This document shows, piece by piece, positions 4,682 through 64,000 of a stretch of DNA of 64,000 nt. The position numbers were made by a program, and so were the translations under genes. This DNA is from Dipodascopsis uninucleata var. uninucleata (Eukaryota > Ascomycota > Lipomycetes > Lipomycetales > Lipomycetaceae): positions 434,001 through 498,000 of the forward strand of contig JAJLTO010000005.1 in the NCBI GenBank assembly GCA_030568195.1, written 5' to 3'. Numbering within the stretch: position 1 is the stretch's first letter; each line of letters opens with the position of its first letter. The notes beneath the pieces are model-generated. The model saw nothing but the letters and a program-made list of their open reading frames with translations, searched no databases and was not told where the DNA came from.

Positions 4682-5934
4682 ATGCCACCAGTCAAGTCAA
4701 TGGGGGCTTCTGAGAACGGGGTTGCTGGTGGTTACTCGTTTACCAGGGAGCAATCAGCTCCGTATTCGACTAGCAGAGGTCATTCACCAGGTTCAGATTC
4801 AATGCAACTTTTAGATAATCTAAGTCGACCAGCTCAGAGTATGTATATGAAAATGATGAATTCGAAACCAGAAGGTCACATCTATACACAGGGCGAGCTG
4901 GCGGGCATGGTTGGCATTAGTGATCCAATGAAGTTGATGACTCTTATCCAAGAGAACATGAACATGGTAAGTCATAATAATCTCCAGAGTATCGCCTGGA
5001 ACGAATTCACTATCTCGACTAAAGGCTATCTGAAGTGACTATCTAACTAATAATGCTTTAGGGTCTAGTGAAAATGCTGAAACAAGGCGATGATCTCTGT
5101 TATCAAGCTATCAAGAAGGAAGAGGCGGAAAAAATACAATCTATGAGTAAGGATGAAGCAATGGTATACTCTTACATAGAGACAGCAGGAACGGAGGGCA
5201 TATGGACAAAGACTATAAAAGCGAAGACGAACCTTCATCAGACAGTTGTTCAGCGTTGCTTGAAGAGCTTAGAAGGCAAACGCTATATAAAAAATGTTAA
5301 ATCAGTGAAATATCCAACAAGAAAAATATATATGCTTGCATCTCTCCAACCATCTGTTGACGTAACAGGAGGACCTTGGTTCACAGATTCAGAGCTTGAT
5401 ACAGAGTTTATATCAAGTTTACTATCGATTATATATCGCTTTATTGCGTCGGAATCATTTCCAGGCGAGGATGAAAAACCTCTTAAAGTACCGTCAACCA
5501 GTAGCTCCTTGAACAAAACTAAAAGGAGGAAAAATGCGAAATTGTCGAAACCTTCTATAGTTTATAACCAATTGTCATATCCAGCATCATATTCTGCCTA
5601 TCCTAGCTTATCACAAATTCATGATTTTGTTCAAACATCAGGAATCACTACAGTTGATCTGGCAGAATCAGATATAAAATCACTATTGGACGTTTTAGTG
5701 TACGATGGTAAAATAGAGCCATACAATGACGGATTAAGTTATAAGGCCCTTTTGGATGCAACTAGTGACATTGATGGTCCAGGGGGGGATATGGGTGCTT
5801 CAGAATTAGATCATAAGTGGGATGCATTTACAGAGTCACCTTGCGGCCACTGTCCTGTATTTGAGTTATGCCGTCCAGATGGACCTGTCAGTGCTGCAGA
5901 GTGCATATATCTTGACGAATGGCTTGTACAATAA
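4682..5934 (+). CDS. RPC34: RNA polymerase III subunit RPC6/RPC34
   Basis: Two exons, 4682-4966 and 5062-5934 (385 residues); the 95-nt intron has GTAAGT, a CTAAC branch site and a TTTAG acceptor, phase 0. Two tandem winged helices follow a disordered N-terminus: the first spans the splice (HIYTQGELAGMVGISDPMKL), the second has EGIWTKTIKAKTNLHQTVVQRCLKSLE and YIKNVKSVKYPTRKIYML. The C-terminus carries four cysteines spaced CX2CX5CX10C (CGHCPVFELC ... AEC), the [4Fe-4S] site known in human RPC6. The protein opens promoter DNA and contacts TFIIIB at tRNA and 5S genes. Length and motifs fit a complete gene. Confidence 0.93.
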
Positions 5935-12376: not shown

Positions 12377-12571
12377 CATGAACAGTTAAATTATACGTCG
12401 GACTGTTCCGTTTTAATCGAAATTTGGTTGTTAAGAGTATACAAAAAGTGAAAGACCTTCGATATCTCTATCCTCCAGTTTCGAGTATGAGGATGATGTG
12501 TAGCTGGAAGTTTGTGTGTTGAGCAGTACATTTGGGATTTGTACACTCTAGCCCAACTCATCTTCTTCTAT

Positions 12572-12579
12572 TGTGACTG
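12572..12579 (-). promoter_or_regulatory. HOMOL-D box
   Basis: TGTGACTG on the plus strand, so CAGTCACA in the eL33 direction, identical to the HOMOL-D element that drives ribosomal protein genes in fission yeast and many other ascomycetes. It lies about 195 bp before the eL33 ATG, allowing for a 5' leader. Confidence 0.85.
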
Positions 12580-12581
12580 CT

Positions 12582-12598
12582 TTAGGGCTATGACCTAA
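12582..12598. promoter_or_regulatory. Inverted TTAGG/CCTAA pair
   Basis: TTAGG (12582-12586) and CCTAA (12594-12598) separated by 7 bp, three bases beyond the HOMOL-D box. TTAGGG-type words are bound by Tbf1/Teb1-like Myb factors. Confidence 0.5.
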
Positions 12599-12632
12599 CA
12601 AAAGTGCCCTATACTGGAAAATTTTTTTCTTA

Positions 12633-12653
12633 GGGTTAGAGCTCCGCTAACCC
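12633..12653. promoter_or_regulatory. GGGTTAG/CTAACCC inverted repeat with telomere-like motif
   Basis: Seven-base arms GGGTTAG (12633-12639) and CTAACCC (12647-12653) with a 7-base spacer; with the two preceding T and A bases the left arm reads TTAGGGTTAG, one and a half telomere repeats. A Tbf1-type site is the likely reading, comparable in role to HOMOL-E. Confidence 0.6.
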
Positions 12654-12667
12654 CTGAGATCAAAGGA

Positions 12668-12675
12668 TATATAAA
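12668..12675 (+). promoter_or_regulatory. TATA box of U3
   Basis: TATATAAA starting 53 bp before the first base of the U3 RNA, a usual distance for Pol II snoRNA genes in fungi. Confidence 0.65.
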
Positions 12676-12720
12676 GAGGACCTGTCTCGGACCTTTAGAG
12701 ATTTTTTTCTTTTCTTCTTC

Positions 12721-13090
12721 GTCGACGTACTTCAGTAAGGAACCCCCTATAAGTTTTGATTATGTTACTGGTATACTTTTTATGATGTTGATGGCTAACA
12801 ACCCTACAGTAGGATCATTTCTATAGGTCACGTCTTTCTTTGAATTTTTCAAAGAAGCTACAGAATCCAACTTGGTTGATGAGTTATGCGCCTTGCCATC
12901 CAAGAGTGAGGCTCTTTTTTCCCATTAACATATTGGATATGAAGCTTTGGTTTCTAGTCTGAATGTTAAGGTCCTTTTGCATTTTGTAGTTTTCTATAGA
13001 TGCAGAGGATTAGCGATGATCTCAACCCTTGTTATCTATGTCTCTCCGGAGAAAAGAACTTGGGCGGATGGTAAAGGTAGTCTGACAAGT
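12721..13090 (+). ncRNA. SNR17: U3 small nucleolar RNA with a spliceosomal intron
   Basis: The 5' exon GTCGACGTACTTCA (12721-12734) is the start of yeast U3. A 75-nt intron (12735-12809) follows with GTAAGG, a CTAAC branch site (12795-12799) and CTACAG. The second exon opens with box A (12812-12827, GGATCATTTCTATAGG), then the conserved hinge AATCCAACTTGG with box C' TGATGAG (12877-12883), box B GAGTGAG (12904-12910), box C in GCGATGATCTC (from 13013) and box D GTCTGA (13080-13085), ending at ACAAGT as yeast U3 does. Mature RNA would be about 295 nt. U3 guides early 18S processing through pairing with the 5' ETS and pre-18S. The intron position equals that of the S. cerevisiae SNR17 genes. 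Confidence 0.95.
12735..12809 (+). other. Intron of the U3 snoRNA gene
   Basis: 75 nt, donor GTAAGG, branch site CTAAC ten bases before the acceptor CAG. Removing it joins CTTCA to TAGGATC exactly as in mature yeast U3. Confidence 0.92.
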
Positions 13091-14496
13091 TCAATAATTC
13101 TGTATTTTGGTATTTTAGTATATATCTGATTAATAAATGAGTTAAATATTTTGAATTCGTATTTTTTTTCGTAGAGATTGGAAATGAAATAGTGTTTTTA
13201 TGTCAGTTGAGTATAATTATATAAAGAATTTGCTTTTGTAAACTTTTATCTGCTCTTATTTCAGAGTGACTTTCATCGTTTTTCTATATATTATAGACAG
13301 TAAGTACAAGCATGTGTCCATACATAAAGATAACTTGTGTTAGAGATAGGAATCATAGCAAAGTGAGTAGTGATATTAAACTTATTATAAAATGGTTATT
13401 ACTTCTAATGTAATAATGTTACTTATATGGTAGTATCGTATGATAGGAGAGCGAGTCTATATGAAATAGAAACTTACTGAGAATTTCAAATGGCTATCTA
13501 GCGTATTGGCATAGAATTAATTGCATTATTCGGCTTACTATTATTAGACTTCCTTACAACTCTGAATATATCAATACTTAGTTTACTATCTTTAGAAACG
13601 AATGGTTATAAATTATCGTCAAGCATGAGTTGCATATAAATTGTTTGTGAATAAGTCAAACCTCGAAACTATATTATACCGGAAGTTGAGCAACGTCGTA
13701 GGGAATTACTTCATAGTAGACGTAACGGTAAGTAAGAAATGAGATGGATTTTAGGCAAGCGCCTAACATAAACGCCACACAGCTTGTGCCCTCAGCTCCA
13801 TGCTGGGCGCCACCATTGTATTAAGGAGGACCCTGATAAATCGATGAGCTTGGCATCAGGATTCGAAGTCCAATTGCTTCATCAAAATAAAAAGATTATT
13901 ATATGCTCTAGTAAAGAGTACACACAATTAGACAACAGGTAGAATAGGAATAACCCAGAGGAACCGGTAAAACGAGTTCAACAAACTTTCGATATTCTTT
14001 ATCATGCGAGATGGCACAGACCAAACCAGATCATACTATCAGACGCGAGAATATTTACGAGGGCCCTTTTAACTAGGATGTATGTTGCAATATATGATAG
14101 CTTTCAATTGATCAGTGTATTTATGAAAAGTCTTAAATACAACTATGCTATTAAGTAAAGTTTGAAAATATCTCTTAGTATTACTACTTTTGGAGAGACA
14201 ATTCTGAATACTTTGCTATCACTATCGTCAAATAGCACGCCTGATGATTCGAAATTTTTCTATATAGACTAGTAATTGATAAAGCGTACTACTAACGAAG
14301 GTAATGTAAGGATAATATAAAAGCCAGAAGATCATGTTCTATAGAGATTTTAGAAGAGAAGATGCATATCATACATTGACTCCATCGTCGCTTAACAATA
14401 GTAATATAGGGCCACTATAAGTATCTATACAACATCCAAAAGTAGTATAAGTAAATATCTTATAAGAAAGAGAGCAATAATTTCACTCAGTGAACT
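13091..14496. other. Accessory spacer before the permease pair
   Basis: 1.4 kb without a gene. Most is featureless AT-rich DNA. A possible LTR end lies around 13800-14100 (separate entry). Confidence 0.5.
13800..14100 (-). mobile_element. Possible LTR-retroelement end, fossil
   Basis: Read on the minus strand, roughly 13820-14100 looks like an LTR that ends near 13816, followed by TGGCGCCCAGCATGGAG, which resembles a tRNA primer-binding site (TGGCGCC type). No second copy, target duplication or internal coding part was recognised, so this is a weak call: a degraded, old remnant at most. Superfamily cannot be told from the LTR alone. Confidence 0.22.
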
Positions 14497-16108
14497 ATGG
14501 CTGACACAGACTTGAGCGAGACGGAGAAGCATATCGCCAACGACGTTGCTAACGCAGACGATGCTCAGCTTGGTCACTTAGGCTACAAGGCTGAGCTCAA
14601 GAGAAGCTTCTCGTTGCTGTCGATGATAGGATTCGCATTTGCAACCTTGACATGCTGGACTGCCTCAGGTCTTCTTCTTTGAGCTCTGTCATTCTTAATG
14701 GCGATCCATCGGCTCTCTTTTGGGAATGGTTGGGTGTTCTGTTCTCTCCATGTTCGTCGTCCTGAATATCGTTGAGATTTGCAGTGCTTACCCAGTTGCT
14801 GGTGACCAATAGCTGGGTTTTCTTGATCGCCAATTTCAGTCCCTGGGGCCGTGGACTTTCCTACGTTACTGGTTGGATTCAGTTAGCCGGATTACTCTGT
14901 AGGGGTTCTACGGCTCTCTTCCAGCTCGGTATCTTTGTATCTGGGATTGCAATTTTGAACAATGAGGAATACGAGGCAAAGAGCTGGCAACTAGTTCTTT
15001 TATGTTGGGCTCTCTGCCCTGTTTATTTAGCAATCAATGTCTTTGGAAGCAAGCTGTTAAGTTGGATAAATGGTATTGCTCTTGGTGTTCCATTGGAGGA
15101 TTTATTATTTCGACTGTTGTTATTCTTGTAGTTACAGACGGTAAGCGAAATACTTCATTTGTATTCACCAGCAGTGATTGTAACTGCGGATGGTCAAACT
15201 TTGACATTGTTGCTATTCTTGGAATTCAGAACTCCGCCTATGGTATGTGTTGCCATGACGCTCCAGCTCACATGGCTGAAGAGCTTCACAACGCTAGCCA
15301 TGATGCAACACGAGCTATGATTTTACCTGTAGCCATTGGTTTCTTTACTGGATTTGTCAACATTATTGTTATCTTATTTTGTCTGGTTGATATCGATGCT
15401 GCAGCTGATTCAGTTACAGGCTCTCCTCTGCTGGAGATCTTCTATGATGCTACTAAAAGTAGAGTTGGTGCCTCATGCTTATGCTCAATTACATAATCAC
15501 ACAATTCTTTGCTTCGAATGCACTTTTGACAGAAGGGTCCCGGTCGATATTTGCTTTTGCTCGTGATCGAGCCGTGCGATTCTCCAAGTACCTGTGTGAA
15601 GTCGACAATAACTTAAACGTTCCAGTTTATGCTCTTGTTCTCTCTGCTTTTTTTTTCAGCGTGTTTTATTGCCATCTATTTTGGATCTTCCACTGCCTTT
15701 TTGACTGTATTGTCCATTGCTACAGTTGGTATTTACGTTTCATATCTCATTCCAATACCTACCATGGTGTTTGTGGGCGAAAATTTACTCCTGGTCACTT
15801 ACAAGCTTCCAGAGTCACTTGGATGGCTGTGCAATATTTTAGGATCACTCTACTTGATTTTCTGCGTTATTTTCTTCTTTCTATCAACTGAAATGCCAGT
15901 CACTGGTAGCAATATGAACTATTGTATTGCTGCTTTCGGAATTACCGGTCTCTTCTGTATATTGTGGTTTATCACTGGCAGAAAATCCTACATTCGCGAT
16001 ATCAATATCTCTGGTTTCGATGCTCAAGAAGACTTTCAGAAAGACGATTTGAGTGATGAGACGAGTCTTAAAGGCCAGACTAAATTTATCCTTGCATTGA
16101 TTTCATAA
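14497..16108 (+). pseudogene. Broken amino-acid/choline-type permease, tandem paralogue of the intact gene at 18601
   Basis: Pieces of the same protein as the intact permease appear in order across all three forward frames: the N-terminus LGYKAELKRSFSLLSMIGF, then SPWGRGLSYVTGWIQLAGLL, DAPAHMAEELHNAS, LLTEGSRSIFAFARDRA and finally TEMPVTGSNMNYCIAAFGITG. At least five frame changes and several stops separate them, including one where the partner reads SITLIAQFF. The ATG and C-terminus are still present, so decay came by small indels rather than truncation. Nucleotide identity to the intact copy is uneven: 15255-15299 and 15890-15924 match it without a single difference, while other parts differ at every third base. 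Confidence 0.88.
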
Positions 16109-18600: not shown

Positions 18601-20175
18601 ATGGCTGATGTTGAGACTCAAATGAAAAGAGCGAACATGGACGACGAGCAACTTGGTCAGCTGGGATACAAGGCCGAGCTAAAGAGAAATTTCTCTCTGT
18701 TGTCAATGATTGGCTTTTCTTTTGCTATCCTAACCTGTTGGACAGCTCTTGGTTCTAGTTTGAGTTCAGTCATGCTTAACGGTGGACCAGCAGCACTCTT
18801 CTGGGGATGGATCGGTGTTTGCTTCTTCTCGATGTTTGTTGTCTTGAGTATGGCTGAGATTTGCAGTGCTTATCCAGTTGCTGGTGGTCAGTACAGTTGG
18901 GTTCTTTTGGTATCCAAACTTTCTCCGTGGGGTCGTGGTTTCTCTTATATCACTGGCTGGATTCAACTTGCTGGCTTACTTTGCATGGGCTCCACTGCCA
19001 TTTTCCAATTCGGCTCTTTCGTTGCTGGTATGGCAATCTTGAACAATGAAAATTACGAAGCGAAGAACTGGCAAGTTGTATTGATTTGTTGGGCTATTGC
19101 TTTTCTCTGCACTTTCATCAATCTGTTCGGGAACAGGATTTTGAACAGAATTAATGATGTTGCATTGTGGTGGTCCTTGATTGGTTTCGTCATCACTACT
19201 GTTGTTATTCTTGCCGTTACGGATGGGAAGCGCAGTGCCTCATTTGTGTTTACCAGTTCTGTTTCTGATGAGTCTGGATGGTCAAATTTTGGTATTATCA
19301 TCATCCTCGGTATCTTAAATTCTGCCTATGGTATGTGCTGCTATGACGCTCCAGCTCACATGGCTGAAGAGCTTCACAACGCTAGCCGTGACGCACCACG
19401 AGCTATGGTTTTATCTGTAATCATTGGTTTCTTTACTGGATTTGTCTACATTATTGCTATCTTATTTTGTTTGGTTGATGTCGATGCCGTTGTCAGTACC
19501 AATACTGGTGTTCCTCTCTTGGAGATCTTCTATGATGCTCTGAGAAGCAAGGTTGGTGCTTCATGCTTATGTTCGATTACTTTGATCGCACAGTTCTTCG
19601 CCGCCAATGCTCTCTTAACGGAAGGATCCAGATCTGTCTTTGCTTTTGCCCGCGATGGAGCTATGCCATTTTCCAAGTATCTTTGTAAGGTCGATGAAAG
19701 ACTTGGTGTCCCAGTCTATGCTATCCTTGTTTCCACTTTCTTTCAGTGCGTTTTCATTGCTATCTACTTTGGATCTTCTACGGCATTTTTGACGGTCTTA
19801 TCCATCGCTACAGTTGGTCTTTATGTATCATATTTGAACCCTATTCTTGCAATGATGATTTGCAGACGCAACTTCGTTCCCGGACACTACAAAATGAGTA
19901 GCTTAATCGGATGGACTGCAAATATATTGGGATCTCTCTACTTGATTTTCTGCATTATTTTCTTCTTTTTCCCAACCGAAATGCCAGTCACTGGTAGCAA
20001 TATGAACTATTGCATCGCTGCTTTCGGAATTACTGGTATTTTCGGTACTATCTCATGGTTTGTTACAGGTCGCAAGGACTACATTCGTGAGATGCAAGTC
20101 ACTAGTATTGAGGGCAAGGCTGTTGAGGAGTATTCTGGTACTGACTCCGTGTCTGAGAAGAAGGGAGAGAGCTAG
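18601..20175 (+). CDS. Amino-acid/choline/GABA permease of the APC superfamily (ACT family)
   Basis: Intronless, 524 residues. The N-terminus has the family signature LGYKAELKRNFSLLSMIGFSFAILTCWTA; about twelve hydrophobic helices follow, with PVAGGQYSWVLLVS and SPWGRGFSYITGWIQLAG in helices 3-4, EELHNASRDAPRAM before helix 7 and LLTEGSRSVFAFARDGAMPFS in the long loop. The C-terminal tail is charged. This is the yeast-family pattern of Uga4, Hnm1 and Bio5, plasma- or vacuolar-membrane importers of GABA, choline or related amines; the substrate cannot be read from sequence. It is the surviving member of a tandem pair; the upstream copy at 14497-16108 is broken. The promoter has an (AT)11 run just before the ATG. 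Confidence 0.92.
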   Translation: MADVETQMKRANMDDEQLGQLGYKAELKRNFSLLSMIGFSFAILTCWTALGSSLSSVMLNGGPAALFWGWIGVCFFSMFVVLSMAEICSAYPVAGGQYSWVLLVSKLSPWGRGFSYITGWIQLAGLLCMGSTAIFQFGSFVAGMAILNNENYEAKNWQVVLICWAIAFLCTFINLFGNRILNRINDVALWWSLIGFVITTVVILAVTDGKRSASFVFTSSVSDESGWSNFGIIIILGILNSAYGMCCYDAPAHMAEELHNASRDAPRAMVLSVIIGFFTGFVYIIAILFCLVDVDAVVSTNTGVPLLEIFYDALRSKVGASCLCSITLIAQFFAANALLTEGSRSVFAFARDGAMPFSKYLCKVDERLGVPVYAILVSTFFQCVFIAIYFGSSTAFLTVLSIATVGLYVSYLNPILAMMICRRNFVPGHYKMSSLIGWTANILGSLYLIFCIIFFFFPTEMPVTGSNMNYCIAAFGITGIFGTISWFVTGRKDYIREMQVTSIEGKAVEEYSGTDSVSEKKGES

Positions 20176-21570: not shown

Positions 21571-22551
21571 CTAGGAAAAGCCACTGAACATTCCTTCCCA
21601 CGTCTCTCCCGCATCTAAGCCAAGATCTAGACTAGAGCTATTAATATGATCGTCAACATTCAGTCCATCAACAAATCCAGCCATCGCGTGCTGATTCTCA
21701 ATGCTGGTATCAGCAGTTACAGTTCCTGGCTGTCGACGAAACATCATAGGAGATGCAGCATTAGTAAAACCGCTACCAAGATCCCATCCTTCTCCCAATT
21801 CGCCCCACTCGCGATTCTGAACAAGCAAACCTGCCCAGGGATCGGGCGATGTTCCTTCTATGGGAGACGAATCGCTGGTAGTAGGCGGACCGGGAGCAAA
21901 CTGCTGAGTCATCATAGGAACGCTAATATCGTTATTTGTATCTGAAGTGAACGATATATTATATGCAGTATTTAGTACTCTTGGGGATGAAAACGATACT
22001 GGATATGGCGAAGCATACAATTTTTGAGCTCTAAGAGCCTGCTGCTGTTGCTGCTGGCTCAGATCTAAAGTCTGAAAAGAAGGAGAAGAGAAGTTTCGTC
22101 CGTTCGAAGAAAACTGTTACCTAGACTGCAGTATTTGTCCATGATTGTATACTGATGGAGGATACTGCATGTGAACGCTGGTTCCATTACTAGGAGGATT
22201 AGTGATATAAGCAGGCGATGAGTTGTATCTGTTTTCAGACAGCGATGGTCTCTGATGCTGAGTATGAAGCGACTTTTCATCCGCAATGGGGGCACTCTGA
22301 TCACGATAGAGCTTGAATTCATCCCCTGACTTTCCAAGTTGTTGCATATCATTTAATGAATTCGGCTGTGATACTAGATGATGTGCATGCTGTGGTGCTA
22401 AATTTCTTATGTCGCTGAGATGACTCTGATGGCTCTGCGGAAGGTGTGGGGACTGTTGATGATGTTGATGATGTTGTTGTAACTGTTGCTGTAACTGCTG
22501 GTGATGATGATGTTCCTGATGTTCCCGATGTTGCTGCTGTTGCTGTTGCTG

Positions 22552-22599
<48 letters not shown>

Positions 22600-24512
22600 T
22601 TGCTGTTGCTGTTGTTGCTGTTGTTGTTGTTGCTGTTGTTGCTGTTGTAACTGCACTTTTTGCTGCTGTAGTCTCTGTTGCCGCTGCTGCTGCTCTTTTG
22701 ATTTCCAAGCGGGATTACTCGTTCTCTCTTCTGCTATTCTTTTACTCCAAAGAACCAAGTTACCAGACATTGCCATGAAACACCATTTTTTGTCTTGACA
22801 CATCACCTTGGCAAGCTGCTCAACTCGTTCTACAGCACGGTTGGCATCTTCTCGAAGCTCATCGGAGTAGGAATCAATATAGTCATACTTTATCGAAAGA
22901 GCAACTAAAAAGCATCTAACATTGGCGTAAAACAAGATCGACCATATAGATGGTCCAGAAAACAGCAAATTGACTGTTGCGTGCTCTAAGATAGCAGACA
23001 CTGATTCACGCGCAAGTGAGAGACGTAGTTGATTTAGAGAAGGAATGAAACTTGAGAAAAGATTGGTCTCTGAGTTAAATGTTGGTCTGAAGAATGGCCC
23101 GTAAAACAGTAACTTAATAGTAACAAAACTAAGCACCAGATGAGATCTCGTCACGCTACTCAGATGGTTGTTGTCCAATCTTTTGCCAAGTTCAATTATT
23201 TTCTCTTCGACGCTACGGAACTGCGCAGCAGTAACCGACTGAAAGCGGTCTGCTCTGAAGCACACTGGATTAATATGTGACAAGACCACTGCTTGGTGAA
23301 TTAGCTCCAGAAAATACTCGTGTGGTGGTGCTGATTCATCATCTAAATCAGTAGGATCAGGGAAAGGAATATCAACGTCAGACAGAGATATCATTAAAGG
23401 ATAACCTTTTCCAGTACTAGTCCACTTGTCTTTAGCAAATAAAGCCCAAAAGGTACGTCGCTTGACTTCTTGTATCAATGGCGGATCGCTTCGATAAGAT
23501 TTCTGCTGATGAAGTCGTAGCTCTAGTGCCATTCTCACAGCCTACATTACAAAAATAAGAATACGTTATGTTAGTCCTTTACATAAAATGACACCAGCTG
23601 GAGACTTAATATACAGATTCTGTGACTTACATGAGCGAGTCGTAGGGGCCACGCCTCAACTTCGTCGATCCGCTTCGATTGTAGTTCCAGTGTTAAATGA
23701 ATCAATGCCAGTGCTTGACATGCCTGTAACGAAGGCTCATATTGTGTAAAGAGAGACGCGAGCTGATTCTGTAGAACACGCTTTATATGTCTAAAATCTC
23801 TCGATGATGTTACAGCATCAGGCAGTCTACAAGCCACGCCGTACATGGCAGATAACAACACCTGCGATGGTTCAATAGACTCGAAGTACACACGAGGAAC
23901 AATAGGAATATATGTATGCACATGTGAATAGTAGAGATTCCTTAGATATCGCTCAACTTTCTTGTCGAGCTTGAGTACAGTATCCAAATCTTCGTCAAGC
24001 TCGGATATCGTGCTCCGATTCTGCATATCTTGACGAAGATGTAATAGCTGCGCCGTTTCGGGATCATCCTTACTCAGGAACGAAAGATTAGAGAATTGAA
24101 AACCTCCATAAGCAGAAGTAGAGCCATCAAGCATGATAGAACCGTCATTAGGAGCTCTGATGGAGCCACCGCGGGGTTTGAGTTCCGTCTCCGAGTCGTA
24201 GCAGTCAATGCCATGGTCGTAGCACCACGCGCATGCACCGGATGGGCTTCGCGGTTGAGGCTCGCAGCGAAGATGACGCTTTCTACATGCTAGACATGAT
24301 CGCTTGCTAGTCGGCACTCCAGCGTTACTACCTCCGCCGCTGCTCAAAATGGTATTGCTGCTGATGCTACTAATGCTACTTGTGCTGCCACTATTAATGC
24401 TGTCACCACTACCTCCACCCACTGAGCTTACCGTTGTCGTTGTCGTTGTCGTAGTCGTTGTGGGGCCTAAGATATCAGCAGTTGCAACTCCTATCGTCGC
24501 ACCCGCCGTCAT
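21571..24512 (-). CDS. Zn(II)2Cys6 transcription factor with long polyglutamine tract
   Basis: Three exons on the minus strand: 23631-24512, 22153-23541 and 21571-22071, about 923 residues. The start is the first ATG (MTAGATIGVAT); the frame is open further up but has no ATG. Thr, Ser and Gly runs precede the zinc cluster CLACRKRHLRC...CAWCYDHGIDC, spaced CX2CX6CX10CX2CX6C. A fungal middle homology region follows (YYSHVHTYIPIVPRVYF through SIKYDYIDSY). The C-terminal third has roughly forty glutamines, then His/Gln repeats. The first intron (89 nt) is clear. For the second, a GTATAC donor at 22152 keeps the phase with the TTTCAG acceptor; a better-looking GTAACA donor 20 bases further on would need a weaker GAG acceptor. 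Target genes unknown. Confidence 0.82.
22525..22660 (-). repeat. CAG/CAA glutamine-coding repeat
   Basis: Imperfect trinucleotide repeat of CAG and CAA codons on the minus strand inside the regulator gene. The two codons are mixed, which slows slippage; the tract probably acts in activation or phase separation. Confidence 0.85.
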
Positions 24513-53489: not shown

Positions 53490-53963
53490 TTAGTAGTTGC
53501 TGCTATAGTTGTAGTGACTCTGCGGTGGGTGGCCGGAAACACGGTTCATCTCAATTGGCTCTTCCTTAAGAGGCTGATAAGTCGTCCGATTGTTGTTAAT
53601 AGCAGGCATAGGTGGCAGACCCGACGATGGAGGCCCAGTATAATAAGGAGAGTACTGAGGAACCTGATAGTTGCCATTTGGGAGCGGCGCTCCAGATCGT
53701 GAACGACTGCTCTTTCTGCAACAGCATGTGCAGCAGCTCGCACAAATAGCGCAAGTAGCCTGCGCACCACAAAGAATTATTCTCAATAACCAAGCGATCA
53801 GAGAAAGAGCTAAATTATTTAAGAGAAAGAGGAGAACACAATTAGCAAAGGACTATATCAGCAAATAAATAATTTCAGTTGCGATATCTCCAGACTACTT
53901 ACCAATGCATACGGCAATGACTATGCCAACAATTGCAATGATCTTGCAAGCTTTGTTATCCAT
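53490..53963 (-). CDS. Small cysteine-rich single-pass membrane protein
   Basis: Two exons on the minus strand, 53903-53963 and 53490-53809, 126 residues; the 93-nt intron (GTAAGT, TTTAG) splits an Ala codon inside the membrane helix. The protein begins MDNKACK, then one helix (IIAIVGIVIAVCIALSLIAW), then a juxtamembrane cysteine cluster (CGAQATCAICASCCTCCCRK) with nine cysteines in about 20 residues, suited to palmitoylation, a basic stretch RSRS and a Pro/Tyr/Asn-rich tail. This layout is common among fungal plasma-membrane or endosomal adaptors, but I know no function for it. Without the splice the N-terminal helix would be lost. It lies next to an RCR-family gene of similar size and layout. 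Confidence 0.75.
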
Positions 53964-55144: not shown

Positions 55145-55974
55145 TTATCTCTTGGCAGCAGCGGGAGGGGACGTAGGAGGTCGATATTGCATCTCGTACG
55201 ATTCTTCGTTCATATTGCTGCCTCCAACTTGTCCATTCTGACCGTAGTAGTAAGTTCCAGTTTGTTGTTGATTCTGAGCTCCGCCGTATGGACCAGGAGA
55301 TGGACTGTATGGTGGAGGAACGCTCGCGTTGCCCTGTCCATTATACTGACCGTAGTATGGCGTAGTTCCAGTATGCTGTGCCTGCTGCGGTGGTGGACCA
55401 GGAGGCGGAGGATAATAACCACCACCTTGACCCATCCAGGCTGTTCCATATATTGGCTGCTTGCTACAATCGAATATTCGCATTAGTCATTTGCAGCTTT
55501 ATTAAATAAGAGAATTTTGTTGACTTACCGCTGCTTCGACAGTCTTCTGTTACGTGTGCATCTGCATAGAGAACTCTGTCAGTACTATTCAATCTGCCGT
55601 TCAAGGTAGCAAAATATTCCAGATCACTTACACAAATAGATAAAAGAACACAAATGCAAATAACACGACGATACCTAAGAGTAGCCATCGACCCCTAATG
55701 TGCATTTCGTTAGAATCGCGTATAAAAAATTATCTGCTTAAGCTGATATAGAGAACTTACCATCGATACCTAAATGCAACACTGTTAGTCGTCTATAGAG
55801 AGCATACACTACAAAACATTTACTCTATAAAATATTTATTCGTATGCTACGATTAACTTACCAGGTTGAGTTACAGCCATATGGATAACAATCTATTATC
55901 GCTTGTTAGAAATCATTGGAAGGCTTCATACCCCAAATCGAGTTGCAGTTACTCAAACATACTGTTACCGCCAT
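55145..55974 (-). CDS. RCR-family membrane protein (Congo red resistance / chitin regulation domain)
   Basis: Six exons on the minus strand: 55932-55974, 55862-55892, 55761-55769 (9 nt), 55632-55694, 55529-55561 and 55145-55463; every phase fits and the product has 165 residues. It begins MAVTVCLSNCNSIWDCYPYG and CNSTWYRWGRW, a short cysteine-bearing lumenal part, then one membrane helix (LLLGIVVLFAFVFFYLFV), a basic segment CTRNRRLSKQR and the family signature KQPIYGTAWM. The tail is rich in Pro, Gly, Gln and Tyr and contains PPPY, a PPxY site for the Rsp5 ubiquitin ligase, as in Rcr1/Rcr2. Those proteins control cell-wall chitin and endosomal sorting of transporters. The smallest intron (55893-55931) is 39 nt. 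Confidence 0.85.
55761..55769 (-). other. 9-nt micro-exon of the RCR-family gene
   Basis: GTATCGATG flanked by CTAAC...TTTAG upstream and GTAAGT downstream. It completes Trp, adds Tyr and Arg and opens another Trp codon (W-Y-R-W). Confidence 0.75.
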
Positions 55975-58900: not shown

Positions 58901-60073
58901 ATTAATATTCTTGCTCCTCAAGTCAGTCATATCTTTAATTTCTTGTTTATTCCAACAGCGACCAGCACAAGACAAGAATGTCGCAAGTGAATTTGGACGT
59001 CTAGGGGCACCACTTGGAATCGGTGACATAAGTTACATTACTACTTCTCCCAATTCTGGCAAACTACTGGAAACCAAAAAATACAATGTTTGAAACAGAA
59101 AAAAAGGAACTATTGCCAGCATAGGGCTCTTGTGTGAGCCGCGATTGAGTCTACTTTGATTCACCATTCCTAGCTGTATATTATAACAATAGTAAGTACA
59201 AATGGTGTACCTAATCTTAATAATGACGAAATACTCTATATCAATAAGCACATTTCTATTTGCTAGAGACTAAAATTCTTATCAGCCTATAAAGGTAAGA
59301 AATGAAAGTTTAATTGGTAAGTGCAGCACGGACACGAATAATAGCCATCTTAAAAAACGCAGCTTGAAAGAACAAAATCAGATTAGTATTAACATATGAA
59401 AAATTTTGTCTATCTCTCCCAAAATATTACGCCATATTACTGTAGACCCATAGTGATTACAACTTATGCCGCGGAAATATGCTGGATTGGACAGCTAACT
59501 CTAGCATTTAGATTAGAGAGTCCTCCTGTCACTAGCAATTCCTCGGAACATGAGTCTTTCCTGACCAGCTCGTAAGCTGTGAATGAAAACATTTAGTTGG
59601 TAGGCCCTGTAAGATGCCTCACAAAAAATTCTTTTCCTATAAATCGCTATCTTGACAGCGAAAGATAGACTCATGGCTGGCCAGATAAGGTGTTAAGGTG
59701 TTAAGGCTTGAACCAGAATGCAGTACTACCTGCGCTCTAGTTTGTACCTTCCACCACAGCTACTTCGCAATGGCTTATGAGAGTTTTGATCTAATATCTT
59801 AGTTAACCACTAAAAGGAATTGCTAATCAGCACGAAAGTTCAACTTATTTTATTCAGTTCTAATCTTTGGTGCCATGCTTCAATTTTATTGTATTCAATG
59901 TCTTAACACTGCACCCTTCTATACTCTTCGTCCTAGTTACAATATTTCAAATAGCATATTGCTAAGCTGTCTTCTTCATTTATTTCATCGTCAATAGCAG
60001 TTGCTTAGAAGTTACAGGACTAGAGTGACTAGAGTTGCAAGAGACGTAGAATTTTTAGCTGCACATTTTAGTT
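55975..60073. other. Gene-free stretch of 4.1 kb
   Basis: The largest gap in the window. No open frame here has protein-like composition and no RNA gene was recognised. It contains an ATCACGTGAT palindrome next to a TGATGATCATCA palindrome (56311-56342), a short tandem AAGGTGTT (59687-59706) and, at the right end, the promoter of the ABC transporter. Decayed mobile DNA is possible but not shown. Confidence 0.5.
56333..56342. promoter_or_regulatory. Palindromic E-box ATCACGTGAT (copy 3)
   Basis: Third identical copy. It lies 360 bp upstream of the RCR-family start, about the same distance as copy 1 from ISD11, and 11 bp beyond a 12-bp palindrome TGATGATCATCA (56311-56322). Confidence 0.55.
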
Positions 60074-63000
60074 ATGGAGAGCGCGTCGAAGTATAGCGAG
60101 AAACTGCCTTTTTTGCGAACGTTCTCATTGAAATCAGAGAGTCAGTCCTCAGTAAACGAAAAATCATCAGTAGTGGATATCCGGACAGATGAGTACAGTC
60201 ATCTTCCTGAAGCTGAAGCAAAGATCTTGCGCGAACAGGTTGAAGTGAAAGATGTTAAGATCTCATTCTTTACCTTGTATCGTTATTCCACAAAGCGGGA
60301 TAAGCTGTTGCTAGTCTTTGCTACCTTTATCTCTATAGTTGAAGGAATATTGAGACCTGCACTCTCTCTAGTATTCGGTGCTGCAGCCCAGGTCTTCACT
60401 GACTACTTTCGTCAACGTGTATATTTCGATGGTGAATACGAAGGATTCTTTGGCGATGAGCATACAGATCAAGGATTTCATAATGGCACTTTTTATAACT
60501 CGACCATGAGTGGTATGAATGAGACACGATATGATTCTTATCAGCAGTTTATGAACTATGGCACACGATTGTATAGTGTGCAAGAATTTCAAGATGAAGT
60601 TAATAAACTGGCTCTTTACATTGTATACTTTGGTATAGCAGATTTGATTTTATCATACTTCGCTGTATATATTTTCATTGACCGCGGTGAACTGCTTTCG
60701 GGTAGAATCCGTGAAAAGTATCTTGCTGCTATTCTTCGACAGAACATTGGTTATTTTGACAAGCAAGGTTCGGGCGGAATTACTACTAGTATTTCTGGTG
60801 ATACTATGGTTGTTCAGGAAGGTATGTCGGAGAAGGTATGCTACGTCGTCTCAAATGTTTCTGCCTTCTTCGCTGCTTATGCCTTTGCTTTTGAACGTCA
60901 GTACCTTCTTACCTTTGTATTAACTTCTGTCGCATTTGTCGTCTCTGTTGCATTGATAGTTGCATCTGGTGAGATGCGTCGCAATTACAAGAAAGCCGTT
61001 GATGAACTTGGACTGGCTAGCACTCTTGCGGAGGAAACTTTATCTAGTATTCGGAATGTCCAGGCTTTTGGAATTCAGGACAGACTGGCACAGCAGTTCG
61101 ATAAACTCATCGGCGTCACAGAAAAATGGAATATTAGAGCCGGAGGCGCGTTAGGTATCTTGACATCCCTTGTATTCTTTGGTTGGTTTAACAATGATGC
61201 CCTGACTTTTTGGTATGGATATAAACTTCTTCGCAGTGGTCAGGCCTCTGTCTCTCGACTAATTTCCGTCTTGCTTTTGATGAATCAGGGAGCCGTTGCT
61301 GTTTCAAATATTTCTCCACACTTCCGAAGTCTTTCTAGTGCAATTGCGGCCGCGTCAAAATTATTCGCTACTATTGACCGTAGGTCTGTCATTGATTCAG
61401 CATCCGACGAGGGAATTAAACTTGATAAAGTTGAAGGCCATATCGAGTTAAAGAACGTTAAATTCATTTATCCTTCAAGGCCAGATGTCACTGTTCTAAG
61501 CAATTTCTCACTTGATATTGGCGCTTCAAAAACTGTCGCTCTTGTTGGGGCCTCTGGATCGGGAAAGAGTACTATTGTTGGCCTGATTGAGCGATTCTAT
61601 GAGCCTTTAGCTGGTACTATTACCTTGGATGGTGTTCCTATTGAATCTCTTAATGTTAGATGGCTCAGACAGCAGGTTGCTTTAGTTTCACAGGAGCCAA
61701 GTCTTTTCGCATGCTCTATATATGACAACATTGCTTATGGTCTGATAGGCACTAAGTACGAATATGCTTCTGAAGTTGAGAAGCGTGAACGTGTACGTCA
61801 GGCCTGTATTCAAGCCAATGCAATGAGCTTCATCGACACTTTCCCTGAGGGTCTCGACACAAATGTTGGGGATCGTGGATTTCTCATGTCGGGAGGTCAA
61901 AAGCAACGTATAGGTATTGCCAGAGCAATTGTCAGTGATCCGAAAATTTTATTACTAGACGAAGCAACTTCTGCTCTGGATACTAGATCTGAAGGTATTG
62001 TTCAGGATGCTTTGGATAAAGCTTCTAAGAACAGGACTACGATTGTCATTGCTCATAGATTAAGCACTATTAAAGATGCGGACACAATTGTCGTGATGCG
62101 TAAAGGTCAAATTGTCGAAATGGGTACTCACTCTGAGCTGCTTGCCAAGAAAGGAAACTATTATGAACTCGTTCAGGCACAGGATGTCAAAGTCGATAAA
62201 AAGTCATCCGCTCAAAATGATTCTGAGAAGTATGAAGATAAGAGCGAGAAAGAGCTGGAAGAAGATGAAATACATGGACTTTCAAAGTCGAATTCTGGAC
62301 AATCAGTTTCAAGTATGATCATAAAGAGCCGTGAGGAACCAGAAGAAGTTGACGAGAATAAATATGGATATTGGGAGCTTATCTTTTATCTCTTTAAGCT
62401 TGGCAAGGATGATAGATGGGTCAATATTATAGGTCTTGGTCTTACTGTCGTCAGTGGGTTTATTTATGTCTTCTTGTCTTTACTTTATTCTAACTGTCTT
62501 GATACTCTCTCTCATCTTCCCGATTATGATTTTGTTACCCCACGAATGTATTTGTTCGCCGGTCTTTTCTTTGGTCTTGCTTGCGTCGCATTTATTTCAA
62601 CTATGGCATCTATTGCATGCTATTCTTATACATCTCAAAAGCTTGTTAGAAAGATTAGGCTTATGATGTTACGTCAGTATATGCGCTTAGATCCAAAATT
62701 CTTTGATACTGATGGAAACAGCTCTGGTGCTCTGACTTCACGCTTATCTAATGATGCAGCAGCCGTTGAGGGTCTTTCGGGGGTTACATTTGGTCAGATA
62801 TTGAGCGCTGGTATGATTCTATTGACATGTTCTATTTTTTCATTAGCAATTTCTTGGAAGTTTGCTCTTGTTACCATAGCCACGATGCCAATTATTGTAG
62901 GAGGTGGTTTTTTCCGTTTGTATGTTCTTAATAGTTTCCAAATTAATCTGAAAGCTTCTAATGAGAAGGCTGCCAGCTTTGCATGTGAGGCTGCTTCTGC

Positions 63001-64000
63001 GATTAGAACAGTTCTTTCATTGACTAGAGAGAATGATGTTCTGTCGAAGTACCGGGCCACTCTGGATGGTCAGAGAAGGGACTCTCGCACAATCAATATT
63101 AAGTCTGCAATGTTCTACGGTGTTTCTCAAGGCTCCCAATTTTTCATTTTTTCCTTGGCCTACTGGTATGGTGGTTCTCTAGTTGTGACAGATAATTACA
63201 GTATTATTCAATTCTATTTTGCCTATACTGCAGTTATATTTGGATCTATATCTGCAGGTATCACCTTGTCATTTGTTCCTGATTTGGGAAAGGCTAAGTT
63301 GTCAGCTGGCTATATCAAGAAGATTCTTGACCTGAAGCCAGAGATCGATACTTGGAATCCAGCGGGCGAAAAGGTTCCTGAAGACTGTAAAGGAGAAATT
63401 GAATTTAAGGATGTGCATTTCCGCTATCCAACTCGGCCACAGGTCCCAGTTCTTCGCGGACTGAACTTGAAGGTCAACAAGGGGCAATATGTTGCTTTGG
63501 TGGGATCGTCTGGCTGTGGTAAGAGTACTACTATTGGTCTATTGGAATCTTTCTACAGACCTTTGGCAGGTTCTATACTACTCGACGGAGTGGATATCTC
63601 GAAATTCAACATCAACTCTTATAGAGATCAGATTGCTCTTGTTCAACAAGAACCTACATTATATGCTGGAACTATTAAGGAAAATATCATGTTTGGTACT
63701 TCTAGAATTGATGTTACTGATGAAGATGTTTACGCAGCTGCTAGACAGGCTAATATTCATGACTTCATTGAATCTCTCCCTGATGGATATGAAACATTTG
63801 TTGGCAATAAGGGAACGCTACTTTCTGGTGGTCAGAAACAGCGAATTGCAATTGCTCGCGCTCTTATCCGCAACCCGAAGATTCTGCTTCTCGATGAAGC
63901 GACCTCCGCTCTTGACTCCGAGTCAGAGAAGATTGTTCAGGCTGCTCTAGATGCTGCGGCTCGTGGTAGAACCACCATTGCTATCGCGCACCGTTTGAGC
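60074..64000 (+). CDS. Full-size ABCB transporter (multidrug/peptide exporter), 3' end missing
   Basis: Open from the ATG at 60074 to the last base, 1309 residues, no intron. Order: acidic N-terminal tail, first six-helix membrane domain with an N-glycosylated outer loop (HNGTFYNSTMSG), first nucleotide-binding domain with Walker A GASGSGKST, signature LMSGGQKQR and Walker B ILLLDEATSALD; a charged linker (KKSSAQNDSEKYEDKSEKE); second membrane domain; second nucleotide-binding domain with GSSGCGKST, LLSGGQKQR, ILLLDEATSALD and the H-loop AIAHRLS, where the window ends. Only some 40 residues should be missing. This is the P-glycoprotein type (fission yeast Pmd1), a plasma-membrane exporter of lipophilic drugs or peptides; the substrate is not readable. 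Both ATP sites look competent. Confidence 0.94.
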   Translation, partial: MESASKYSEKLPFLRTFSLKSESQSSVNEKSSVVDIRTDEYSHLPEAEAKILREQVEVKDVKISFFTLYRYSTKRDKLLLVFATFISIVEGILRPALSLVFGAAAQVFTDYFRQRVYFDGEYEGFFGDEHTDQGFHNGTFYNSTMSGMNETRYDSYQQFMNYGTRLYSVQEFQDEVNKLALYIVYFGIADLILSYFAVYIFIDRGELLSGRIREKYLAAILRQNIGYFDKQGSGGITTSISGDTMVVQEGMSEKVCYVVSNVSAFFAAYAFAFERQYLLTFVLTSVAFVVSVALIVASGEMRRNYKKAVDELGLASTLAEETLSSIRNVQAFGIQDRLAQQFDKLIGVTEKWNIRAGGALGILTSLVFFGWFNNDALTFWYGYKLLRSGQASVSRLISVLLLMNQGAVAVSNISPHFRSLSSAIAAASKLFATIDRRSVIDSASDEGIKLDKVEGHIELKNVKFIYPSRPDVTVLSNFSLDIGASKTVALVGASGSGKSTIVGLIERFYEPLAGTITLDGVPIESLNVRWLRQQVALVSQEPSLFACSIYDNIAYGLIGTKYEYASEVEKRERVRQACIQANAMSFIDTFPEGLDTNVGDRGFLMSGGQKQRIGIARAIVSDPKILLLDEATSALDTRSEGIVQDALDKASKNRTTIVIAHRLSTIKDADTIVVMRKGQIVEMGTHSELLAKKGNYYELVQAQDVKVDKKSSAQNDSEKYEDKSEKELEEDEIHGLSKSNSGQSVSSMIIKSREEPEEVDENKYGYWELIFYLFKLGKDDRWVNIIGLGLTVVSGFIYVFLSLLYSNCLDTLSHLPDYDFVTPRMYLFAGLFFGLACVAFISTMASIACYSYTSQKLVRKIRLMMLRQYMRLDPKFFDTDGNSSGALTSRLSNDAAAVEGLSGVTFGQILSAGMILLTCSIFSLAISWKFALVTIATMPIIVGGGFFRLYVLNSFQINLKASNEKAASFACEAASAIRTVLSLTRENDVLSKYRATLDGQRRDSRTINIKSAMFYGVSQGSQFFIFSLAYWYGGSLVVTDNYSIIQFYFAYTAVIFGSISAGITLSFVPDLGKAKLSAGYIKKILDLKPEIDTWNPAGEKVPEDCKGEIEFKDVHFRYPTRPQVPVLRGLNLKVNKGQYVALVGSSGCGKSTTIGLLESFYRPLAGSILLDGVDISKFNINSYRDQIALVQQEPTLYAGTIKENIMFGTSRIDVTDEDVYAAARQANIHDFIESLPDGYETFVGNKGTLLSGGQKQRIAIARALIRNPKILLLDEATSALDSESEKIVQAALDAAARGRTTIAIAHRLS

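Follow-up and report, generated by a model that had tools for sequence, protein, structure and literature searches.

Does the U3 small nucleolar RNA (snoRNA) locus at 12721-13090 (+) of the window, by which we mean the whole 64-kb stretch of DNA analysed here, carry a spliceosomal intron close to its 5' end, and does this intron sit where those of the Saccharomyces cerevisiae U3 genes sit? Judged from the sequence, the locus is very probably an independently transcribed, working U3 snoRNA gene of an ascomycete fungus, split by an intron after nucleotide 14.

The U3 gene and its conserved boxes

The covariance-model search proposed in an earlier note on this DNA returned a full-length match to the Rfam family Fungi_U3 (RF01846) at 12797-13090 (+), with a score of 158.5 bits against a gathering score of 95 and an E value of 3.2e-40 (cmscan, 64 kb). 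The match spans 274 of the 274 model positions without a break and was the only one in the 64-kb window to reach the gathering score. When the region 12500-13400 was searched up to E = 1, one Fungi_U3 match was listed, the program having dropped, as overlapping, three weaker matches from its clan.

Based on exact strings of our own choice, six boxes were located on the forward strand. Box A' (12728-12733) lies entirely within exon 1 (12721-12734, 14 nt, +; GTCGACGTACTTCA), which agrees at 14 of 14 positions with the printed S. cerevisiae U3 5' end. Box A (12812-12820) lies entirely within exon 2 (12810-13090, 281 nt, +), which was identified by its boxes and the Fungi_U3 match and also carries boxes C' (12876-12882), B (12904-12910), C (13013-13021) and D (13080-13085). 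Additionally, 12860-13000 was searched for box D', and a single CTGA was found there (12959-12962).

Because exon 1 sits farther upstream, the first 13 model positions were placed on the final 13 nt of the intron instead; in this part of the alignment, five base pairs of the first hairpin were flagged as non-standard. A U3 covariance model can mask an intron in this way, its 5' end being aligned onto intron sequence. Taken at face value, the single unbroken match, which begins with 13 positions within the supposed intron, would speak for an intronless gene whose RNA begins at about 12797, the upstream 14-nt match being a product of chance. We regard this reading as extremely improbable. A start at about 12797 puts branch-site and acceptor sequence where box A' belongs and brings with it the five non-standard pairs of the first hairpin, whereas the A'-bearing 14-nt exon has its single exact occurrence 75 nt upstream, flanked by GT and AG. 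In the whole 64-kb window, GTCGACGTACTTCA occurred exactly once; with up to three mismatches allowed, five matches were found, four of them with exactly three mismatches, where 3.28 were expected by chance.

Fungal genomes usually hold several U3 copies, nearly all of them at most three (Canzler, Stadler and Hertel 2017; PMC5832005), which would leave room for a functional copy elsewhere and for a decayed or unspliceable pseudogene at this locus. Such a pseudogene is very unlikely here, however: the six boxes are intact, the splice signals are present, the full-length model match lies far above the gathering score, and blastn found no second U3 copy in the 64-kb window. Repeats of at least 14 nt were likewise not found within 12400-13400.

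Upstream of the U3 gene, which we continue to read as working and intron-split, a TATATAA box (12668-12674, +) lies 53 nt from the U3 5' end, and a HomolD-box-like site, TGTGACTG (12572-12579, +), lies 149 nt from it as a further candidate promoter element. TGTGACTG, which we take to be the HomolD sequence, is weak evidence when considered alone, because it occurs three times in the window versus 2.08 expected (at least three occurrences in 35 of 100 shuffles); individually, both candidate sites are weak. According to PMC5832005, the U3 promoter comprises a TATA element and a Homol D box. The distance of the TATATAA box differs from that in the SNR17A promoter construct, which is 86 nt in PMC6171561. 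By homology, the precursor would start at 12721 from a TATA-type promoter, and the 3' end of the U3 RNA was likewise placed by homology.

A pattern search for U3 relatives among viral and prokaryote contigs gave 38 loci (20, 14 and 4), none of which was accepted as U3. Neither GATCATTT nor TGGTTGATGA was present in the 500 nt that start at any of the 20 exon-1 pattern matches; among the other 18 loci, 14 had the box A string only (one of these also had GTCTGAY) and four had box C' only, so that A and C' occurred together in 0 of 18.

Intron and splice signals

The spliceosomal-type intron covers 12735-12809 (75 nt, +) and has a GTAAGG donor, a GGCTAAC branch site and a CTACAG acceptor, with the branch A at 12798, 11 nt before the intron end. 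Its excision gives a predicted RNA of 295 nt, the first 32 nt of which are identical (32/32) to the S. cerevisiae U3 5' end as printed in PMC6171561. Among the 37 GT..AG pairs scanned (GT start at 12716-12780, AG end at or before 12879, length at least 30), only 12735-12809 restored 32/32, and the runner-up reached 20; the alternative acceptor at 12812 gave 18/32 to the same printed 5' end. A 75-nt intron of spliceosomal type after nucleotide 14 of a U3 gene had been proposed in the earlier note, and its coordinates proved exact. When the first 110 nt of the spliced RNA were aligned with the first 117 nt of the S. cerevisiae RNA, 91 of 107 columns were identical, with 13 gap positions. The pattern GTAAG-N40..70-GCTAAC-N5..20-YAG-TAGGATCATTT, which was composed post hoc, occurred once in the window versus 0 times in 100 shuffles.

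A structured or self-splicing intron was also considered and was rejected: the U3 intron is poorly structured (z +2.07), and 199 of 200 shuffles folded at least equally well.

In the survey of PMC5832005, U3 introns show the branch consensus RCTRAC (129 of 138), located 6-36 nt from the acceptor, and CAG acceptors in 129 cases versus TAG in eight; their mean length is 92 and their mean branch distance 15 nt, and the commonest donor pattern is GTRWGT (88 of 136). The branch site GCTAAC of the present intron matches RCTRAC, its CAG is of the commoner acceptor type, and its length of 75 and branch distance of 11 nt are close to the published means. The donor GTAAGG departs from GTRWGT at the final base, which was counted against the intron. 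Thus characterised, the intron has the published attributes of a spliceosomal U3 intron, namely GT-AG ends, an RCTRAC site 11 nt from the acceptor, and a location in the 5' arm of M1, between boxes A' and A.

The donor of the S. cerevisiae U3 intron is GTATGT, compared with GTAAGG here, and the genomic SNR17 junction, on its donor side, presumably places the intron at the same point. The earlier note had assigned the intron to the site known from the SNR17 genes, and this was borne out by the U3 5' end in PMC6171561 and a primer in PMC3454408, which cross the same point; the latter, EJ snR17F, begins with GACGTACTTCATAGGATC and crosses the same exon junction. SNR17A and SNR17B therefore resemble this gene in the exon junction and in the identical 32 nt of the spliced 5' end. 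Moreover, the first position of the branch site is G, not U, both here and in the S. cerevisiae U3 genes (PMC3454408). The S. cerevisiae introns, at 157 and 130 nt in the same paper, differ in size from the 75-nt intron found here.

Predicted effect of splicing on the 5' hairpins

Spliced nt 1-39 were predicted to form a single hairpin that spans the junction, with a free energy of -12.3 kcal/mol. Mononucleotide shuffles of these 39 nt had a mean of -5.2 kcal/mol, and three of 500 reached -12.3. When the full spliced RNA was folded, the junction hairpin was still predicted; it was missing from the predicted unspliced fold. For spliced nt 1-62, two hairpins were predicted (M1/M2; -20.6 kcal/mol).

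By homology, the spliceosome would excise 12735-12809 and link the A'-bearing 14 nt to the 281 nt that carry box A and the C'/B/C/D core. Splicing would close hairpin M1 and make A' and A adjacent. The 5' domain of U3 base-pairs with the 18S precursor, and by analogy the adjacent A' and A may constitute the domain for this pairing. Splicing does not create box A, because A' lies whole in exon 1 and A lies whole in exon 2 (12812-12820); on this point, the earlier suggestion that box A is formed solely through splicing was mistaken.

With an 18S sequence entered by hand, pairing to the 5' end of 18S was predicted at -17.8 kcal/mol for the spliced 5' end, -18.6 kcal/mol for exon 2 plus the last 14 intron nt, and -12.5 kcal/mol for exon 1 plus the intron start. 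As a test of splicing, this pairing was uninformative and slightly against it.

U3 introns across fungi

A literature search by title and abstract gave PMC5832005 as the one paper on U3 introns across fungi among the matches listed. In this survey of 147 fungi and 310 U3 genes, an intron was present in 138 of the genes, from 78 of the fungi, and 133 of the 138 introns were located within the 5' half of M1. The statement in the earlier note that introns in snRNA-like genes are rare is thus wrong for fungal U3. Three main intron positions were distinguished, one of them typical of Saccharomycetaceae and Sordariomycetes, and introns were reported in the great majority of Pezizomycotina analysed and broadly in Basidiomycota (PMC5832005). 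Neurospora crassa has three U3 genes that bear an intron (PMC2780460).

As far as the text of PMC5832005 can show without its figure, the intron described here sits at the Saccharomycetaceae/Sordariomycetes position. By the same text, it resembles those of the Sordariomycetes U3 genes in lying in the 5' half of M1, at a position shared with Saccharomycetaceae. Because this position is reported for both groups in PMC5832005, a shared site outside the budding yeasts had already been published. The U3 intron of this locus is a further instance of a known recurrent feature that has been catalogued in many fungi and, as found, contributes a single data point to an established pattern.

Nadsonia fulvescens is placed outside the Saccharomycetaceae. 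In PMC5832005, U3 introns within Saccharomycotina are stated to occur in Saccharomycetaceae only, and none is reported for Taphrinomycotina; the same paper also gives a GC-GG U3 intron in N. fulvescens, which is at odds with the statement. A single gain followed by losses and sliding could not be distinguished there from independent gains on the available data. The idea that the U3 intron is old in ascomycetes and was lost elsewhere, which the earlier note had put forward, therefore stands as one of two published scenarios, but these data do not decide in its favour.

Introns of neighbouring genes and placement of the lineage

Because only one coding intron emerged from an automatic search, nine introns in neighbouring protein genes were called by hand, the first of which was identical to the automatic one. 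They are 41-212 nt long, and three genes carry two of them each. All nine have GT..AG ends; as the introns were picked for such signals, these ends are not independent evidence. Only five of the nine begin with GTAAG. Within the last 45 nt, the branch-like sequence nearest the end was CTAAC in five, CTAAT in one and weaker in three, in one of which it lies too near the intron end to be genuine; these exceptions weigh against the present reading. Two introns in the GDH gene and a third close to the beginning of a gene of the amine-oxidase family are less sure, because fewer than 30 open codons are present on one side. The signals of the U3 intron fit this set, to which they appear broadly similar. 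S. cerevisiae introns are unlike it.

Over one stretch, the Rpc34 protein (5074-5934, +) was identical at 87 of 130 positions to 5fj8_P (Pol III subunit RPC6), its nearest match among solved structures, which we take to be the S. cerevisiae chain, and at 49 of 130 to 7a6h_P, presumably the human chain; 5fj8_P and 7a6h_P were identical to each other at 46 of 130. Solved structures offered too few fungal comparators for placement, and comparisons for Taf7, the Ca-ATPase, Sua5, the Isd11-like protein, GDH and Orc3 gave nothing decisive. Rpc34 and the intron set would together fit an ascomycete outside the Saccharomycetaceae. We lean tentatively towards a deep Saccharomycotina lineage, the protein comparison being with 5fj8_P and 7a6h_P.

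It is possible, at a confidence that we put somewhat below even, that the gene belongs to a non-Saccharomycetaceae Saccharomycotina (for example, a deep lineage like Lipomycetaceae) or Taphrinomycotina lineage and links the introns of Saccharomycetaceae and Sordariomycetes at the same base. If this is true and the lineage is one reported without U3 introns, the gene would make a single old gain followed by many losses more likely than repeated gains and would extend the published map of U3 introns. It would matter more in that case because an intermediate between Saccharomycetaceae and Pezizomycotina would hold the same site, which bears on a single gain.

Other features of the window

The C-terminal cysteine cluster of Rpc34, CGHCPVFELC, was aligned with cysteines in 7a6h_P and not in 5fj8_P. 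Downstream of U3, a decayed tandem duplicate of an amino-acid permease gene (14557-15962, +) is spread over several frames; across an alignment of 1440 columns, 62 of them gap positions, its identity to 18640-20051 (+) is 75.1%. The intact permease ORF is located at 18601-20175 (+). The sequence at 22117-23532 (-) encodes a protein containing 39 consecutive glutamines and adjoins an exon at 23571-24512 (-) in which a Zn2Cys6-like motif was recognised by eye. An apparent, very short intron of 41 nt (23542-23582) joins the polyglutamine and Zn2Cys6-like exons.

Two small reading frames, 53490-53852 (-) and 55145-55486 (-), have parts rich in Pro, Gly, Tyr or Gln, and the first also has a Cys-rich stretch; they perhaps encode CYSTM-type proteins. 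At the end of the window, an uninterrupted frame of 1314 codons (60059-64000, +), in which two ABC-type ATP-binding halves were recognised by eye, continues past the last position.
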